Origin: Gemmatimonadaceae bacterium
GTDB taxonomy: Bacteria; Gemmatimonadota; Gemmatimonadetes; Gemmatimonadales; Gemmatimonadaceae
NCBI GenBank assembly: GCA_035606695.1
Contig: DATNEW010000050.1
Span: 1 to 64,000 of the forward strand
Length of the DNA stretch: 64,000 bases
Reading direction: 5' to 3'
The notes under the pieces were generated by a model. It had not been told where the DNA came from. It saw only the letters and a program-made list of their open reading frames with translations, and did not search any database. Of the stretch, positions 2,285 to 9,722 are shown in pieces (the stretch's first letter is position 1; every line of letters begins with the position of its first letter). A program made the position numbers and the translations under genes.

Positions 2285-2773
2285 CTATTGATGAACGGGC
2301 CCGTTCCACGACGTCATGTCCGCATCTTCACCATCACCGCCCGGGCGCCCATCCTTGCCCAAGGTGTACAAGTCGTACGCATTGGGATTCGCGACCCCGG
2401 GCGAGACGTACACGTACGGCCGGCCCCACGGATCGAGCGGCACGATCTGGCGGAGATACGGGCCCTTCCAGTTCGGCGGCGAATCCGCCACCGGCAATGT
2501 CCGCAGCGCCTCGAGCCCCTGCGCACTCGTCGGAAATCCCTCATTGTCCAGGCGATACGCATCCAGCGCCAATGAGAGAATTTGAATTTGACTCTTCGCG
2601 GTATTTCTCCGCGCTTCGCCGATGTTGCCGAACAGCGACGGCGCCACGATGGCCGCGAGCGTCGCGATGATCGCGATCGTCACCAGCAATTCGATCAGCG
2701 TGAAGCCGCCGGGCGAACGCAGATGCCCGCGCCGGCGCGCGCCGCGCGCGGAACGCTCAGTCCTGCACCACAC
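2285..2773 (-). CDS. gspG: Type II secretion major pseudopilin GspG
   Basis: The mature region FTLIELLVTIAIIATLAAIV is preceded by a Gly, giving the classical G|FTLIE prepilin peptidase site. Further on are the family hallmarks: 'ALDAYRLDNEGFPTSAQGLEAL', 'KGPYLRQIVPLDPWGRPYVY' and the C-terminal calcium-loop region 'DLYTLGKDGRPGGDGEDADM'. The frame stays open far upstream into gspE; I chose GTG at 2773, overlapping the gspE stop by 17 nt, because it gives a leader of normal length (about 22 residues, basic). Role: main subunit of the periplasmic pseudopilus. Start confidence is lower than the family call. Confidence 0.92.
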   Translation of the reverse strand: MWCRTERSARGARRRGHLRSPGGFTLIELLVTIAIIATLAAIVAPSLFGNIGEARRNTAKSQIQILSLALDAYRLDNEGFPTSAQGLEALRTLPVADSPPNWKGPYLRQIVPLDPWGRPYVYVSPGVANPNAYDLYTLGKDGRPGGDGEDADMTSWNGPVHQ

Positions 2774-4229
2774 GCGCCACCTCCTCCACCGTCGTGTGTT
2801 GCGACTCGACCTTGAGCCAGCCGTCCTCTCGCAGCGCGACGAAACCCGCCTCGAGAGCAAGCGCCCGCAGCTCGGCACGCGGCGCACGCGCCGCGATGGC
2901 ATCGCGCAGCGCATCCGTGACGGTCAGCAGCTCGAAGATCCCCACGCGCCCGCGATATCCCGTGCCTCGACAGGCGCGACATCCTTCCCCACGCACCAGC
3001 GTCGCCCGCCGCATATCGCGCCCGGCGACCGCCGCAACCGTCTCCGGATTCGGCTCGTACTCGACGCGACATTCATCACAGATCCGCCGCACGAGCCGCT
3101 GCGCCAACACGCCTTCCAGCGTCGCCGCCACCAGGTAATCCGGAACGCCAAGGTCCAACAGCCTCGGTATCGCACTCACGGCATCATTCGTATGCAGCGT
3201 GCTGAACACGAGATGCCCGGTCATCGACGCTTGCACCGAGATCTCCGCGGTCTCCTTGTCCCGCATTTCGCCGATCATCACGACGTCGGGATCCTGCCGC
3301 AGAATCGCGCGCAACGCGGCACCGAACGTCACGCCCGCCTGGCGGTGCACCGGCATCTGCGTGATGCCCGGCAGTTGATACTCGATCGGATCTTCGACGG
3401 TGATGATCTTCTCGACCGTCGCGTCACGCTGCTGCAGAGCCGCATACAAGGTTGTCGTCTTGCCGCTGCCCGTCGGCCCGGTCACGAGCAGCATCCCATG
3501 CGGCTTCCCCGCCAACCGCGACGTCGCTTGGAATACAGTCGGCGACATCCCCAACTCGCTGAGCGTGACGGGACGCCCGCCGTGATCGAGCAGGCGAAGC
3601 ACGACGCTCTCGCCGAACATCGTCGGCACGGTCGACACGCGGAGATCCAACTCGCGCGCCTCGAGCCGCACGCGAATGCGCCCATCCTGCGGACGCCGCC
3701 GCTCCGCGATGTCCAGCTCCGCGAGCAGCTTGATGCGCGATACCACGGCATGATGCAAATGCGCCGGCGGCTCGGGCGCCGGCACGAGCACACCGTCCAC
3801 CCGAAAGCGAACGGACAATCCCGTCCGCGTCGCCTCGAGATGAATGTCGCTCGCCGCCGCGTCATACGCGTCGCGCACGAGCAAATTGACGTACCGAATG
3901 ACCGGCGGCTGGTTCGCGAGATCGCGCACGTCGGTGGTGAGATCGTCCGCCGCTACGTCGGCGCGCGCAAGCTCGATCGACCGCTCCGACCGTGTCGTGA
4001 GACGCTCGATCAATCGCTCCAGCTCATCCTGCTTCACGGTCTCGAACGTCACCGCGCGCTGATACACGTACGCGAGATCCGACGCGCTGCCGCGCAGCGC
4101 ATGCTCCGCCGCGGCAACGATCAGCGCGCCGTCGTCCCCAATCGCCTTCGGACATACCTTGTGATGCAGCAGATACTCTCGGCTCAGTCCACCGGCGAGC
4201 ATCAACGCATTGGTCGTTTGAATGAGCAT
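2757..4229 (-). CDS. gspE: Type II secretion / type IV pilus assembly ATPase GspE
   Basis: About 490 residues with the chosen ATG at 4229. An N-terminal GspE_N-like region (SREYLLHHKVCPKA...) leads to the ATPase: Walker A GPTGSGKT (about residues 251-258), Asp/His boxes (ITVEDPIEY, STLHTNDA), Walker B region VVMIGEMRD (about 316-324), and a tetracysteine zinc site CDEC ... CRAC (384/387 and 417/420) typical of GspE and PilB. It powers pseudopilus assembly at the cytoplasmic face. The frame is open up to 4400, but the extension would run into the divergent methyltransferase gene and is not protein-like; other candidate ATGs are 4259 and 4202, and none has a convincing ribosome binding site. 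Confidence 0.92.
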   Translation of the reverse strand: MLIQTTNALMLAGGLSREYLLHHKVCPKAIGDDGALIVAAAEHALRGSASDLAYVYQRAVTFETVKQDELERLIERLTTRSERSIELARADVAADDLTTDVRDLANQPPVIRYVNLLVRDAYDAAASDIHLEATRTGLSVRFRVDGVLVPAPEPPAHLHHAVVSRIKLLAELDIAERRRPQDGRIRVRLEARELDLRVSTVPTMFGESVVLRLLDHGGRPVTLSELGMSPTVFQATSRLAGKPHGMLLVTGPTGSGKTTTLYAALQQRDATVEKIITVEDPIEYQLPGITQMPVHRQAGVTFGAALRAILRQDPDVVMIGEMRDKETAEISVQASMTGHLVFSTLHTNDAVSAIPRLLDLGVPDYLVAATLEGVLAQRLVRRICDECRVEYEPNPETVAAVAGRDMRRATLVRGEGCRACRGTGYRGRVGIFELLTVTDALRDAIAARAPRAELRALALEAGFVALREDGWLKVESQHTTVEEVARVVQD

Positions 4230-4390
4230 GCTGCACAGTGCCGTCGCCGACGCCACCATGCGTGACCATTCGAACGCACACCGCGCCATTGCGCCGCGCG
4301 ATCGCTCACGAAAACGGCATTCGTGTTTTTTGATCGCCCACGCAACGAACTGGTCGCGGTCACCGCGCTCGACGTCACTAGAGTCGGCGC

Positions 4391-7300
4391 GTGCCCACAC
4401 TCCACGCAGCCGCGCAACTCCTGCTCGCGGCCAACTCCATCGATGGCCTCGTGCCTCTCGCGCGCGCCATCGGCTGCGCCGGCGACGTCGCCCCGCTCGA
4501 CACGCCTACCCGCCAGTCGCTCGGCATCATTCAAGGAGTTTCGGACGCGCGCATCGCGACCGGGCGCGGTGCGCTGCGTGCCTTGCTCCTGTCGGTAAGC
4601 GACGGCACTCCGCTACGCGACCGTATCCCCCGCCTCGCCGCTCGGCTCGCCTCGCGCGCGCCGCACGTCCTGTGGATCGTACTCGCGGTCCAACCCGAAA
4701 CCGATTCGCTCGCGATCGCCGCGTGGACAGATGACAGACGCCCACCGCGCATCGCGGCCCTCGTGGCGCAACGCAGCCGCCTCGCCGACAGCGATGCGGA
4801 GACGGTGCGTTCCCTCGCCGCCGCCGCCGGCCCGCGCGATCTTCTCACCCACGCGCGCTGGGTCGAGATCCTGGGCCGAGATGCGTTGACGATCCGCTTT
4901 TATCGCGCGCTCGAAGGGGCGATCGGCAAGCTCACCGAGTCATCGCCCGCCGGCAGCGCCGCCGTCCGGCGCGAGCTCGCGCTACTCGATACCTCGCGCC
5001 TGCTCTTCCTCACCTTCCTCGAGGCGAAAGGCTGGCTCGCCGGAGACCACGCGTTCATCGCGCGCCACTATGAGCAATGCGTCGCCAACCGCGGCGGTTT
5101 TCGTAGCCGCATCCTGCGGCCGCTCTTCTTCGGCACGCTCAACACACCACGATCCGCGCGCGCCACGCTCGCCCTCCGATTTGGTAACGTTCCGTTCCTA
5201 AATGGCGGTCTCTTTTCGCGCACGCCACTCGAGCGCCAATCCCGCCACGTCTCATTCTCCGACGACGCCTACGGCGCGCTCCTCTTCGACGTGTTCGGGC
5301 AATACCGATTCACCGCCCACGAAGAATCCGCCTCCTGGAACGAAGCCGCCGTCGACCCCGAGATGCTCGGTCGTGCCTTCGAGTCGCTCATGGCCAATCA
5401 GGAGCGACGAAAGACCGGCGCCTTCTTCACCCCGTTCGCGCTCGTCGAACGCGTCACGCGCTGCGGCCTCGAGGCCACACCAATTCACACGCGGGACGAT
5501 CTCGCGCGCGCCGCCGTGCTCGATCCCGCCTGCGGCTCGGGCGCATTCCTCGTCCACACACTCGAGCGACTCGCCGACCGCGCCCGCGAGCTCGGCGACG
5601 ACGGCCCGATGTCCGAGATTCGCCGCCGTATCCTCACGCGCTCGATCTTCGGCGTGGATGTCAATCCAACCGCCGTCTGGCTGTGTCAGCTCCGCCTCTG
5701 GCTGTCCGTCGTCATCGACAGCGACGAGACCGATCCCGCCGCCGTCATGCCGCTGCCCAATCTCGATCGCAACGTGCGCGTCGGCGACGCTCTCCAGGGC
5801 GCAAGCTTCAACGAGGAATCGACGCCAGTCCGCGGCGACAGATCAGTCGCTCGTCTTCGCGAACGCTATGCGCGCGCGACCGGCCCGCGAAAGGAATCGC
5901 TCGCCCGCGAGCTCGATCACACCGAGCGCGCGCGCGCCCTCGCCGTCATCGACGCCAATCTCGAATCAGTCGCCGCCCGCCGGCGCGATCTTCTCTCCGC
6001 ACGGCGCGGACGCGATCTGTTCGGCGGACGATACCGCCCATCAGCCGCCGAACGTGACGCAGCCGCCGGGTTGCGCCGACATGCCGCAGCGCTTCGAACC
6101 ACGCGTCGTACGATCGCAAACGGCGGTGCGCTGCCCTTCTCATTTCCAACGCACTTCGCCGACGTATGCGCGCGCGGCGGGTTCTCGCTCATCGTCGGCA
6201 ATCCGCCGTGGGTTCGGCTGCATCGAATTCCCGTGCAACAACGTGCCGCCATCCGACGCGACTTCGCCGTCGCGCGTACCGCCGCCTGGGAGGCAGGCGC
6301 AACCTCCGCCGGCGCCGGCGCCGGATTCGCCGCGCAGATCGACGTCGCCTCGCTCTTCATCGAGCGCTCGAGCGAGCTGATCGCGCCAGACGGCGCAATG
6401 GCCCTGCTCGTTCCGTCGAAGCTCTGGCGTTCGCTCGCGGGAGGTGGCGTTCGACACCTCCTGTTCGAGAAGACTCGAGTACTGACGCTCGAAGATTATT
6501 CCGAGGCTCCGGCTGCATTCGACGCGGCCGTCTACCCCTCGCTCATCGTCGCGCGCAGGCCCGCGGACGACACTCCTCGCATCTGCGACACGAAGTTCGC
6601 GGTGCATCACAAAGGACAGCACGCGTTTCGTTGGTGTGCGCCGTGTGACTCGGCGGCATTCGATGAGTCTCGTGGCGCACCGTGGGTGCTGCTTCCACCC
6701 GAAGCGCGGCGCGCCTTCGACCTCATACGCCGGATCGGTCAGCCCCTCGCCGAAAGCGCGCTGGGCCGCCCGTACCTCGGCGTCAAATGCGGTTGCAACG
6801 ATGCATTCATCGTCGAGTGCGTCGATGCGCACGGCGAGCTCGCGGAGGTCGTCACGTCAGACGGTCAGGCGATCACCGTCGAGCGTTCGCGCGTACGCCC
6901 GTTGTTACGCGGCGAAGTGCTTCGTCCGTGGTGCGTGCCGGCGAATTACGAGTCCATTCTTTGGACGCACGATCCCGACGGCACGGCTAGCCACAAGCTC
7001 CCCGCGCTGACGAGTCGTTGGCTCGCGCAGTGGCGGCACGCGCTCGTGAATCGAAGCGATGCACGCAACCGCGCGCGGTGGTGGTCTCTCTTTCGCGTCG
7101 AGAGCGCGCGAAATGATCGGCCGCGCGTCGTGTGGGCCGACGTCGGAAAGGAACTGCGCGCGTCCGTGCTGCCCGCGGGCGACGAACGCATTCCGTTGAA
7201 CACCTGCTACGTCGTTCGCTGTCGCGATGAGTGCGATGCACACGCATTTGCCGCATTGCTCAACGGTCCGCTGGCTCGCGCGTGGTTGAATGCGGTGGCC

Positions 7301-7522
7301 GAACCGGCGCGCGGCGGCTATCACCGCTACCTCGGCTGGACGATGGCGCTCTTGCCGATTCCCACGCCGTGGGACGACGTACGCCACGCACTCGCGAAGA
7401 TCGGCCGACGCGGCGCACTCGGCGCGCGCATCAGCGACGTCGAGTTGCTCGAGGCGGCGACCGAGGCGTACGGTATCGTTCACGACGACGTCGCTCCGCT
7501 CGTGGCGTGGAGCGCGGGGTGA
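4391..7522 (+). CDS. Eco57I-like adenine-N6 DNA methyltransferase with target-recognition domain (type IIG / PglX / DrmMI-like)
   Basis: 1043 residues. An N-terminal alpha-rich domain of about 330 residues includes 'LLFLTFLEAKGWLAGD', seen in large Eco57I-type methylases. The methyltransferase core has motif I DPACGSGAFL (378-387), 'IFGVDVNPTAVWLCQLRLWL' as the adjoining SAM-pocket region, and the amino-methyltransferase motif IV NPPW (604-607), which predicts N6-adenine methylation. The C-terminal ~300 residues show target-recognition-domain signatures: 'GVKCGCNDAFIV', 'RPLLRGEVLRPW' and 'RWWSLFRVESARNDRPRVVW'. I see no PD-(D/E)XK nuclease motif in the N-terminal domain, unlike a complete type IIG enzyme. 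The helicase gene starts 7 nt after its stop. A divergent 161-bp gap separates it from gspE. Confidence 0.88.
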   Translation: MPTLHAAAQLLLAANSIDGLVPLARAIGCAGDVAPLDTPTRQSLGIIQGVSDARIATGRGALRALLLSVSDGTPLRDRIPRLAARLASRAPHVLWIVLAVQPETDSLAIAAWTDDRRPPRIAALVAQRSRLADSDAETVRSLAAAAGPRDLLTHARWVEILGRDALTIRFYRALEGAIGKLTESSPAGSAAVRRELALLDTSRLLFLTFLEAKGWLAGDHAFIARHYEQCVANRGGFRSRILRPLFFGTLNTPRSARATLALRFGNVPFLNGGLFSRTPLERQSRHVSFSDDAYGALLFDVFGQYRFTAHEESASWNEAAVDPEMLGRAFESLMANQERRKTGAFFTPFALVERVTRCGLEATPIHTRDDLARAAVLDPACGSGAFLVHTLERLADRARELGDDGPMSEIRRRILTRSIFGVDVNPTAVWLCQLRLWLSVVIDSDETDPAAVMPLPNLDRNVRVGDALQGASFNEESTPVRGDRSVARLRERYARATGPRKESLARELDHTERARALAVIDANLESVAARRRDLLSARRGRDLFGGRYRPSAAERDAAAGLRRHAAALRTTRRTIANGGALPFSFPTHFADVCARGGFSLIVGNPPWVRLHRIPVQQRAAIRRDFAVARTAAWEAGATSAGAGAGFAAQIDVASLFIERSSELIAPDGAMALLVPSKLWRSLAGGGVRHLLFEKTRVLTLEDYSEAPAAFDAAVYPSLIVARRPADDTPRICDTKFAVHHKGQHAFRWCAPCDSAAFDESRGAPWVLLPPEARRAFDLIRRIGQPLAESALGRPYLGVKCGCNDAFIVECVDAHGELAEVVTSDGQAITVERSRVRPLLRGEVLRPWCVPANYESILWTHDPDGTASHKLPALTSRWLAQWRHALVNRSDARNRARWWSLFRVESARNDRPRVVWADVGKELRASVLPAGDERIPLNTCYVVRCRDECDAHAFAALLNGPLARAWLNAVAEPARGGYHRYLGWTMALLPIPTPWDDVRHALAKIGRRGALGARISDVELLEAATEAYGIVHDDVAPLVAWSAG

Positions 7523-7529
7523 GCCCGGT

Positions 7530-9722
7530 GTGAGCGCCCCCGGCGTACGGGCCCTTATTGCTCATGCAATGCTCGACGCGACCGCGAGCGCGCCGCACAC
7601 GCTGGGCGACGTCACACTCCGACCGCACCAGCGCGCCTCGGCCGACCGGCTGCTGGAGCTCATCGCGCATCACGGCGGCGCGTTGCTCGCCGATCGCGTC
7701 GGCACCGGCAAGACGTACACCGCACTGGCGGTTGCGTCGCGTGAACGTGCGATCATAGTGATCGCCCCGTCGTCGCTTCGAGACATGTGGCGCGACGCAC
7801 TTGCCACGACCGGCGTTGCCGCGCGCATCGTCACGCATGAGAGCTTGAGCCGCGGCGACATTCCTACGCTCGAGCCATCCATCGTTCTCGTCGACGAGGC
7901 GCATCGTTTCCGAAATCCCGCGACACGGCGATACGCCGCGGCTGCCACGCTCTGCCGCCGCGCGAAAGTCCTGTTGGTGTCGGCCACGCCGATTCAAAAC
8001 GCGCGCAACGACCTCGCCGCGCAGCTGGCACTCTTTCTCGGGCGCCGAGCATGGTCGATGGACGAAGCCGAGCTTGCGGCATACGTCGTACGCGATTCCG
8101 AGCCCGAGCGTCTCACGCTGCCCGTGCAGCTCGGCCCCATTCGCATCGAGCTGGACGTCGACGACGATTGCACCGACGATCTGCTCGCGCTTCCGCCGCC
8201 GGTGCCGGCGCGCGATGAGTCGCTCGCCGCGGCGCTGCTGACATGTGGCTTCGTGCACCAGTGGACGTCGAGCCGCGCGGCGTTGGTATCCGCGCTGCGT
8301 CGGCGGCGTACGAAGGCGTTGGCGCTGTCGGACGCGCTGAGTACCGGTGTCATGCCGTCGCGCGCCGAGCTCGCCGCATGGACGCACCTCGGCGACGCCA
8401 TGCAGCTCGCCTTTCCCGAGCTGGTGGTCGCCGCCGGCGACGACGCGTCATCTGATGTCGACGCGCTGCGTGACGCGATCGCCGCGCATCTCGCCGCGCT
8501 CGAGCATCTGCTGGCGCGCTTGCGGTCTGGGCACGATCCGGACGATGCGCGCGCCGACGCACTGCGAATCATTCGTGACCGGCATTCCGGTGAGCGTGTC
8601 ATCGCATTCTGTCATTACGCCGAGACGGTTGCGGCACTCTGGCGTCGGCTGTCGGGCAGTCGAGGCGTTGCCGCGCTGACCGCCGCCGGTGCGCGCGTTG
8701 CCGGCGGCCGCATTTCGCGACGTGACGTGCTCACGCAATTCCAGCCCGGCACCGCCGCCCGACCCATTCGCGATGTCGATCGCATCGATCTACTGCTCAC
8801 GACCGACGTGCTGAGCGAAGGACTGAATCTTCAGGAAGCATCGGTCGTCGTGCATCTCGATCTTCCATGGAACCCCGCGCGTCTTGAGCAGCGGGTCGGT
8901 CGTGTGCGCCGGCTTGGTTCGCGACACGCGACCGTCTCCGTCTACGCGCTTGCGCCGCCCGCCCGCGCTGATGCGTTGCTGCGCATCGACGAGCGGCTGC
9001 GCGCGAAGCTCAGCATCGCACGGCGCACGGTGGGCATCGCCGGCCAGATTCTTCCATCGATGCTCGGCGACGGGGCGGGCGAATCCGGCGCTGCCGAGCT
9101 GCATGCGACGATTCTCACACATCTTCGGCGATGGGCCTCGCCCCGCATTCCTGCCGGAGCCGCCGATCCGCTCTCGGCCGCCGTCGTCTCGAGCACGCGC
9201 GGCTTTCTCGCGCTCATTGCGAATGGAAGCCGATCGCGGCTCGTCGCGAAGATCGACGGACCAATCTCGAGCGACGCGAAAACGGTATTGCGCGCACTCG
9301 CTCTCGCGGAAGGACCTGACATGCCTATCGACGCGAATGCGCTTGCCGACGCGTCCAGGTGTCTGTCGCGCTGGCTGGAACATCAGCGCGGCGCTATCGC
9401 CGTCGATCTGTCCGCGGCCGCCGCTGCCCGTTCGCGCCGCACCGCGCTCGAGCGTGTGCGTCGGGCGCTATCGCATGCACCACGGCATCGCCGAGCGCAG
9501 CTTGCGCCGTTGGCTGACGCCGCGCGCGCTGTTGTCGCCGCGCCACTCGGCGAGGGCGCCGAACGTGTCTTGGAGATGTTGGTGCGGGCGGACTTGCCGG
9601 ACGAGGCGTGGCTGCGATCCATCGCGGCATTCGGAGAATTGAACGCGCGGCCGCCGGCACCGAGCGAGTCGGGGGTCGACCGCGTGGCGGCGATCATCTT
9701 GTTCCAATCCCCCGCGCTTTAG
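7530..9722 (+). CDS. SNF2/RapA-like superfamily 2 helicase paired with the upstream methyltransferase
   Basis: About 730 residues from GTG 7530 (alternative ATG 7569). Motifs: LRPHQRA near the start (Q-motif region), Walker A VGTGKT (K61), motif Ia 'IVIAPSSLRDMW', DEAH box VDEAHRF (D122-H125), motif III VSATPIQN, motif V 'DVLSEGLNLQEA' and motif VI 'RLEQRVGRVRRLG', an order and wording close to RapA/HepA and DrmD-type helicases. The ~200-residue C-terminal tail is alpha-rich and carries no nuclease motif that I can see. Walker A context reads ADRVGTGKT where relatives usually read ADE.G.GKT. Tight coupling to the methyltransferase (7-nt gap) says they act together, most likely as a restriction-like or DISARM-like defence pair. 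Confidence 0.88.
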   Translation: MSAPGVRALIAHAMLDATASAPHTLGDVTLRPHQRASADRLLELIAHHGGALLADRVGTGKTYTALAVASRERAIIVIAPSSLRDMWRDALATTGVAARIVTHESLSRGDIPTLEPSIVLVDEAHRFRNPATRRYAAAATLCRRAKVLLVSATPIQNARNDLAAQLALFLGRRAWSMDEAELAAYVVRDSEPERLTLPVQLGPIRIELDVDDDCTDDLLALPPPVPARDESLAAALLTCGFVHQWTSSRAALVSALRRRRTKALALSDALSTGVMPSRAELAAWTHLGDAMQLAFPELVVAAGDDASSDVDALRDAIAAHLAALEHLLARLRSGHDPDDARADALRIIRDRHSGERVIAFCHYAETVAALWRRLSGSRGVAALTAAGARVAGGRISRRDVLTQFQPGTAARPIRDVDRIDLLLTTDVLSEGLNLQEASVVVHLDLPWNPARLEQRVGRVRRLGSRHATVSVYALAPPARADALLRIDERLRAKLSIARRTVGIAGQILPSMLGDGAGESGAAELHATILTHLRRWASPRIPAGAADPLSAAVVSSTRGFLALIANGSRSRLVAKIDGPISSDAKTVLRALALAEGPDMPIDANALADASRCLSRWLEHQRGAIAVDLSAAAAARSRRTALERVRRALSHAPRHRRAQLAPLADAARAVVAAPLGEGAERVLEMLVRADLPDEAWLRSIAAFGELNARPPAPSESGVDRVAAIILFQSPAL

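Follow-up and report, generated by a model that had tools for sequence, protein, structure and literature searches.

A near-core methyltransferase-SNF2 helicase pair of the Gemmatimonadales, very probably descended from a restriction-like system whose nuclease was lost

The window analysed here, a stretch of 64,000 nucleotides (nt) from a Gemmatimonadaceae bacterium (contig DATNEW010000050.1, positions 1 to 64,000), carries on its plus strand a gene for an N6-adenine DNA methyltransferase (MTase; 4391-7522, 1043 amino acids, aa) and, after a gap of 7 nt, a gene for an SNF2-family helicase (7530-9722, 730 aa). We consider it very probable that this pair is a core, vertically inherited and nuclease-less descendant of a restriction-like system, in which a homologous MTase was combined with an SNF2 helicase bearing a PLD nuclease domain (PLD-SNF2). 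As for its present role, we lean towards a domesticated restriction-modification system that serves epigenetic housekeeping with a dedicated motor. The open reading frames (ORFs) and coordinates agree with those of a previous reading made from the letters without database searches (here referred to as the sequence-only reading), which had described an Eco57I-type MTase and an SNF2-like helicase 7 nt apart.

The pair is near-core in the order Gemmatimonadales, a group of soil and water bacteria, is inherited vertically and lies mostly amid housekeeping genes. We searched 298 genomes of the phylum, including 172 of the order (103 of the window's family, Gemmatimonadaceae, and 69 of two other families), with thresholds of E <= 1e-10 for the helicase and E <= 1e-20 for the MTase, and the order and family tallies were made by hand from the match lists. 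Phylum-wide, the helicase was found in 206 genomes and the MTase in 167; the weaker helicase matches in more distant families are probably other SNF2 helicases. Within the order, 156 genomes have the MTase and 151 the helicase (92 and 89 in the window's family, 64 and 62 in the two others). Both are present in 150 genomes, the MTase alone in 6, the helicase alone in 1 and neither in 15 (Fisher p 6e-16), and genomes of the window's family that are without the MTase are smaller (median 2.4 vs 3.8 Mb, p 3e-4); both tests count genomes as independent, though relatives are not, and many of the genomes are metagenome-assembled (MAGs). The sequence-only reading would have been refuted if the pair never co-occurred outside this one strain; it recurs in about 150 related genomes, far beyond chance. 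The assembly of the window (5.9 Mb) holds a single copy.

We then compared 61 loci, i.e. the window and 60 fetched loci of relatives, in which the MTase was called 61 times and the helicase 54 times. The two genes are adjacent and on the same strand wherever both were called, with one small gene between them in a single family (f4, see below), and in many relatives there is an overlap of a few bases between the two ORFs. Among the loci without a called helicase are some on contigs with early ends, some in which the frame caller chose another frame although the genome search puts the helicase at that site, and one real loss, in Gemmatirosa. It would be conceivable that the MTase acts epigenetically on its own, the helicase being a separate hitch-hiking gene, for example one of RapA-like transcription recycling. 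Retention of the MTase alone in Gemmatirosa and the faster evolution of the helicase fit this idea, but the nearly perfect co-occurrence and the overlapping ORFs speak against it, and we regard it as very unlikely.

Both genes follow the descent of the order. Compared with the rpoB tree, the MTase tree shares 13 of 24 splits and the helicase tree 14 of 24 (random mean 0.27, maximum 3), the correlation of distances with rpoB is 0.88-0.89 (rho) for the two proteins, and close pairs give dN/dS values of 0.10-0.28 (MTase) and 0.18-0.41 (helicase). The congruence with rpoB together with the low dN/dS shows vertical inheritance under purifying selection. On one side, most of the loci have genes for NUDIX, rhodanese, LD-carboxypeptidase, symporter and glycosyltransferase proteins, and on the other side HAD phosphatase, ECF sigma, anti-sigma and DUF4097-like genes recur, the identities of these neighbour clusters being read off representative sequences. 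A sporadic defence island is therefore not what the locus represents, since it is clade-core, vertically inherited and mostly among housekeeping genes.

The origin of the pair was traced through its relatives. In the nearest ones outside the phylum, confirmed by tblastn and found in many phyla (including on plasmids of Nostoc and Thermus), the MTase is accompanied by a helicase some 1020-1170 aa long that has an N-terminal PLD/HKD nuclease. Each of the 27 such nuclease-bearing relatives examined has the HxK motif, which in 24 of them is followed by GS-x-N. In the MTase tree, which shows the common ancestry of the window's MTase with the MTases of these restriction-like pairs, the nuclease-less rows form one clade of 36 (SH-aLRT 100); this and the other trees were built quickly, and the rows of this one are not uniform in letter composition. 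A few members of the clade are MAGs labelled as Myxococcales, Acidobacteriota and Proteobacteria. The nuclease domain survives in a dead form in two families of the window's class. First, in family f9 the helicase has a fused N-terminal domain of about 190 aa without HxK; the top 32 Foldseek matches of its AlphaFold2 model all belong to the PLD superfamily (PLD3, TrmBL2, NucT, Zucchini, Nuc), the model being built from five f9 sequences only, with pLDDT of 70-92 in most blocks of residues 11-130. Second, in family f4 a separate protein of about 190 aa, again without HxK, is encoded between MTase and helicase, and a profile of two such sequences matches the PLD domain of Chloroflexota PLD-helicases (E 4e-9 and 4e-6). 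The hhalign comparison of the joint f9 and f4 alignment with the PLD domain is weak (probability 5.6%, E 0.007), so the PLD identity is taken from the f9 structure and the f4-only profile. In the loci of families f1-f3, the window included, no trace of a PLD domain was found. Because these dead intermediates exist, loss of the nuclease is the likelier direction.

Several relatives deserve mention in their own right. On plasmid pRadio5 of Deinococcus radiophilus (L092 13547-22970), the MTase, a GmrSD-like (DUF262) protein, a hypothetical protein and the PLD-SNF2 helicase form a cluster, possibly a hybrid restriction system. Three further plasmid-borne relatives encode a protein of about 410-440 aa without a Pfam match between MTase and PLD-helicase (L090 11255-12574, L093 11550-12806, L091 8608-9846). 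A family-profile search also found a nuclease-less MTase with a minimal helicase of 520 aa on a contig filed as viral (L311, IMGVR_UViG_3300003315_000001); this pair adjoins a pseudopilin-like gene and lies near an integrase-like gene, probably at a prophage boundary.

The two proteins of the window and their main features are as follows.

4391..7522, plus strand: N6-adenine DNA methyltransferase, gamma class, MmeI/BrxX-like layout, 1043 aa (Pfam; AlphaFold2 model with pLDDT 90.8; structural matches to CamA, M.BseCI, MmeI and BrxX)
4391..4870, plus strand: MTase N-terminal domain, residues 1-160, where type IIG/IIL enzymes have their nuclease; without conserved catalytic residues, as judged by conservation only, since it lies outside the structural matches
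5522..5542, plus strand: MTase motif I (binding of S-adenosylmethionine) DPACGSG, residues 378-384; D378, P379, A380, G382, S383 and G384 at least 95% invariant
6200..6211, plus strand: MTase catalytic motif IV NPPW, residues 604-607; in 61 of 61 sequences
6581..7390, plus strand: target-recognition domain (TRD), residues 731-1000; weak TaqI_C-like match, TRD/core identity ratio 0.99
7530..9722, plus strand: SNF2-family helicase/translocase, 730 aa, without the N-terminal PLD nuclease of relatives (Pfam; comparison with relatives)
7701..7715, plus strand: helicase motif I (Walker A) GTGKT, residues 58-62; G58, G60 and K61 invariant
7893..7904, plus strand: helicase motif II (Walker B) DEAH, residues 122-125; in 52 of 54 sequences
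8889..8912, plus strand: helicase motif VI QRVGRVRR, residues 454-461; Q454, R455, G457, R458 and R461 invariant
9030..9719, plus strand: helicase C-terminal region, residues 501-730; fast-evolving, without conserved catalytic residues

The catalytic motifs of both proteins are thus intact. In Pfam the MTase matches Eco57I (61.5 bits), N6_Mtase (43 bits) and MmeI_Mtase (29.3 bits), and the helicase matches Helicase_C (61.8 bits) and SNF2-rel_dom (43.3 bits). The sequence-only reading had called the Arg in the Walker A context ADRVGTGKT unusual, but this position varies freely among relatives (D, E, P, S, R, A, N, G). Its main observation, a two-gene module without a nuclease, is borne out: none of the nuclease families in Pfam, NCBIfam and PADLOC matched either protein, except type IIG models over the MTase part, and by conservation within the family residues 1-134 of the MTase contain at most one residue, and residues 501-730 of the helicase at most two, that are at least 95% invariant. 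Since invariant residues are so few in these two regions, neither protein hides a conserved nuclease site.

The TRD, too, speaks for domestication. Its diversification is expected if an MTase still serves restriction, and in the nuclease-bearing relatives the TRD/core identity ratio averages 0.64 (8 disjoint pairs with full TRDs); between two Nostoc MTases, for example, core identity is 90% and TRD identity 45%. In the window's phylum the ratio is 0.99 (30 disjoint pairs; p 8e-8 against the nuclease-bearing relatives), and it does not fall below 0.69 in any of 886 pairs with at least 40% core identity. As conservation of the TRD is about equal to that of the catalytic core, the target specificity of the MTase appears to be fixed. 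This also bears on the idea of functional restriction in which another part of the genome provides the nuclease in trans. The helicase does retain its ATPase motifs despite the loss of the nuclease, but the TRD does not diversify, and the 60 loci show no recurrent nuclease next to the pair (genome-wide nuclease content was not screened); we consider this explanation very unlikely.

We further compared the pair with known systems. The closest are the pairs of PLD-SNF2 helicase and Eco57I-type MTase in Nostoc, Thermus, Chloroflexota, Archaea and others, which have the same two-gene core with homologous MTase and helicase, the helicase being the PADLOC candidate C3a139 'HKD+Snf2'. They differ in their intact PLD nuclease, diversifying TRD, variable gene order and accessory genes, and some are plasmid-borne, whereas the helicase of the window has no HxK PLD domain and its TRD is conserved. 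Type IIL/IIG enzymes (MmeI, BpuSI, DrdV) share with the window's MTase the succession of helical spacer, MTase core and TRD. They carry an active N-terminal PD-(D/E)XK nuclease, while residues 1-160 of the window's MTase show no conserved catalytic set (by conservation only). A separate MmeI-like enzyme is encoded in the window's own genome (L251 6599-9883, contig C34); its N-terminus reads FLDCHRTNHFAIEAKD, likely an intact nuclease motif, which would make the enzyme a useful active counterpart to the window's MTase.

The model of the MTase (pLDDT 90.8) has CamA of Clostridioides difficile as its top structural match (Z 30, 518 residues, 16% identity), followed by MmeI (Z 25.7, 638 residues), M.BseCI and BrxX (Z 23.4), the matches spanning residues 163-1031. 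CamA, the closest solved structure, is likewise core to its lineage and without a nuclease; it is a core orphan N6-methyladenine (m6A) MTase with an epigenetic role (PMC8187626). It has about 580 aa and belongs to one species, and the abstract on it reports no helicase partner (PMC8187626); the window's MTase is in contrast order-wide, has extra N-terminal domains and an SNF2 partner, and is only 16% identical in sequence.

The sequence-only reading had also raised the possibility of a remnant broken off from DISARM, whose class 1 combines an SNF2 helicase (DrmD) with an m6A MTase (DrmMI). DrmD is indeed the best NCBIfam match of the helicase, but at 120.5 bits against a cut-off of 610, and the DrmMI score is also far below its cut-off. 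When genes of the 60 relatives' loci were clustered by family, no drmA/B/C-like or other nuclease neighbour recurred; the recurrent neighbours are housekeeping genes. Moreover, both genes are open, under selection and widely conserved, and their nearest relatives are the PLD-SNF2 pairs, so a DISARM remnant seems most improbable. BREX offers a similar likeness, the MTase resembling BrxX and the helicase BrxH, but neither pglZ, brxC nor further brx genes recur within about 6 kb of the pair (loci only; the genome was not searched for them), and the MTase misses the BREX-2 PglX equivalog (54 bits, cut-off 400). The profiles of Pfam, NCBIfam and PADLOC, the last of which the sequence-only reading had named for a check, give Eco57I/N6_Mtase and SNF2 families with all equivalog cut-offs widely missed. 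A literature search of limited coverage found no paper on this pair.

The strongest competitor of domestication is innate immunity without cutting, fixed in the lineage, in which the MTase marks self and the SNF2 motor detects or stops incoming DNA that lacks the mark. BREX is thought to act without cutting, the MTase is BrxX-like in structure and the helicase resembles the defence helicases DrmD, DpdE and BrxH. In addition, the relatives outside the clade all look like restriction systems, and loss in small genomes is expected of a dispensable defence. On the other hand, a near-core, vertically inherited locus in a housekeeping neighbourhood with a non-diversifying TRD is unusual for defence; plasmid and phage records hold only distant relatives (about 25% identity), and the viral collection contains no close relative of the pair. 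We regard this alternative as possible but less probable. The minimal defence system of the sequence-only reading accordingly holds in part: the family is related to defence-type enzymes, yet defence is not the best reading of a pair that is near-core, vertical and mostly among housekeeping genes.

We therefore return to domestication, which we judge somewhat more probable than its negation. The ancestor would have been a two-gene, ATP-dependent system, whose m6A MTase marked self DNA and whose PLD-nuclease-SNF2 translocase cleaved DNA that lacked the mark. On the line of descent to the window, this nuclease would have lost its HxK active site and then vanished, and the MTase and the naked SNF2 motor would have become fixed in the chromosome of the whole order. 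Comparison of sequences and structures shows the ancestry, the nuclease loss, the vertical descent, the intact catalytic motifs of both proteins, the purifying selection and a TRD that does not diversify. The present role is inferred: the MTase would now mark one fixed sequence genome-wide as an epigenetic or housekeeping signal. As the least certain step, and judging from its family, the helicase may translocate on double-stranded DNA and remove or remodel the proteins on it, or nascent DNA, which would enable marking or read-out.

Several points weigh against domestication. No methylome connects a motif to the MTase of the pair, the only methylome found being that of Gemmatirosa kalamazoonensis, with the methylated motifs RGATCY, ATGCAC and CCAGN7TCA (PMC3974934). 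For these three motifs Gemmatirosa (G080) has four m6A MTase candidates, namely a type I HsdM with HsdS, an MmeI-like enzyme, an MT-A70 enzyme (G080:C2:1636583) and the MTase of the pair. In genomes that carry the pair as in those that do not, the frequencies of RGATCY and ATGCAC show no clear avoidance or enrichment. Furthermore, the pair is missing from small genomes and so is dispensable, and the motor is not always needed, because Gemmatirosa retains the MTase without the helicase.

The Gemmatirosa locus (L078) is a natural helicase deletion: the helicase is gone, the MTase motifs are intact and an ECF-sigma-type gene lies directly next. Assignment of a motif by elimination in this organism (ATGCAC first, then RGATCY) was dropped when the fourth m6A MTase, of the MT-A70 family, was found. 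Among the families searched, no m6A MTase besides that of the pair was found in genome G039, which we take to be Gemmatimonas phototrophica.

The window's own copy has been relocated out of the recurring housekeeping neighbourhood. It is flanked 5' by a divergent type II secretion system operon (E, G, F) and 3' by genes for a reaction-centre-type cytochrome C and an aldo/keto reductase, consistent with the secretion operon and cytochrome named in the sequence-only reading. The longest gspE frame (2757-4400) and the MTase gene (from 4391) diverge with overlapping 5' ends; the promoter of the pair may lie inside gspE, or a very short shared region may be used.

That restriction systems can be domesticated into regulators is a frequent assumption, but the intermediates are rarely caught. 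Here they form one series, from the active nuclease outside the clade through a dead fused domain (f9) and a dead split-off protein (f4) to none in the window's order, along which MTase and motor remain under selection. The pair also provides a candidate lineage-wide epigenetic enzyme for a poorly studied phylum. To our knowledge, known orphan MTases have no SNF2 motor such as this pair retains. We tentatively propose an order-wide epigenetic system, in which the MTase and its own motor, akin to a chromatin remodeller and recycled from restriction, may write and maintain one conserved m6A mark throughout the genome.

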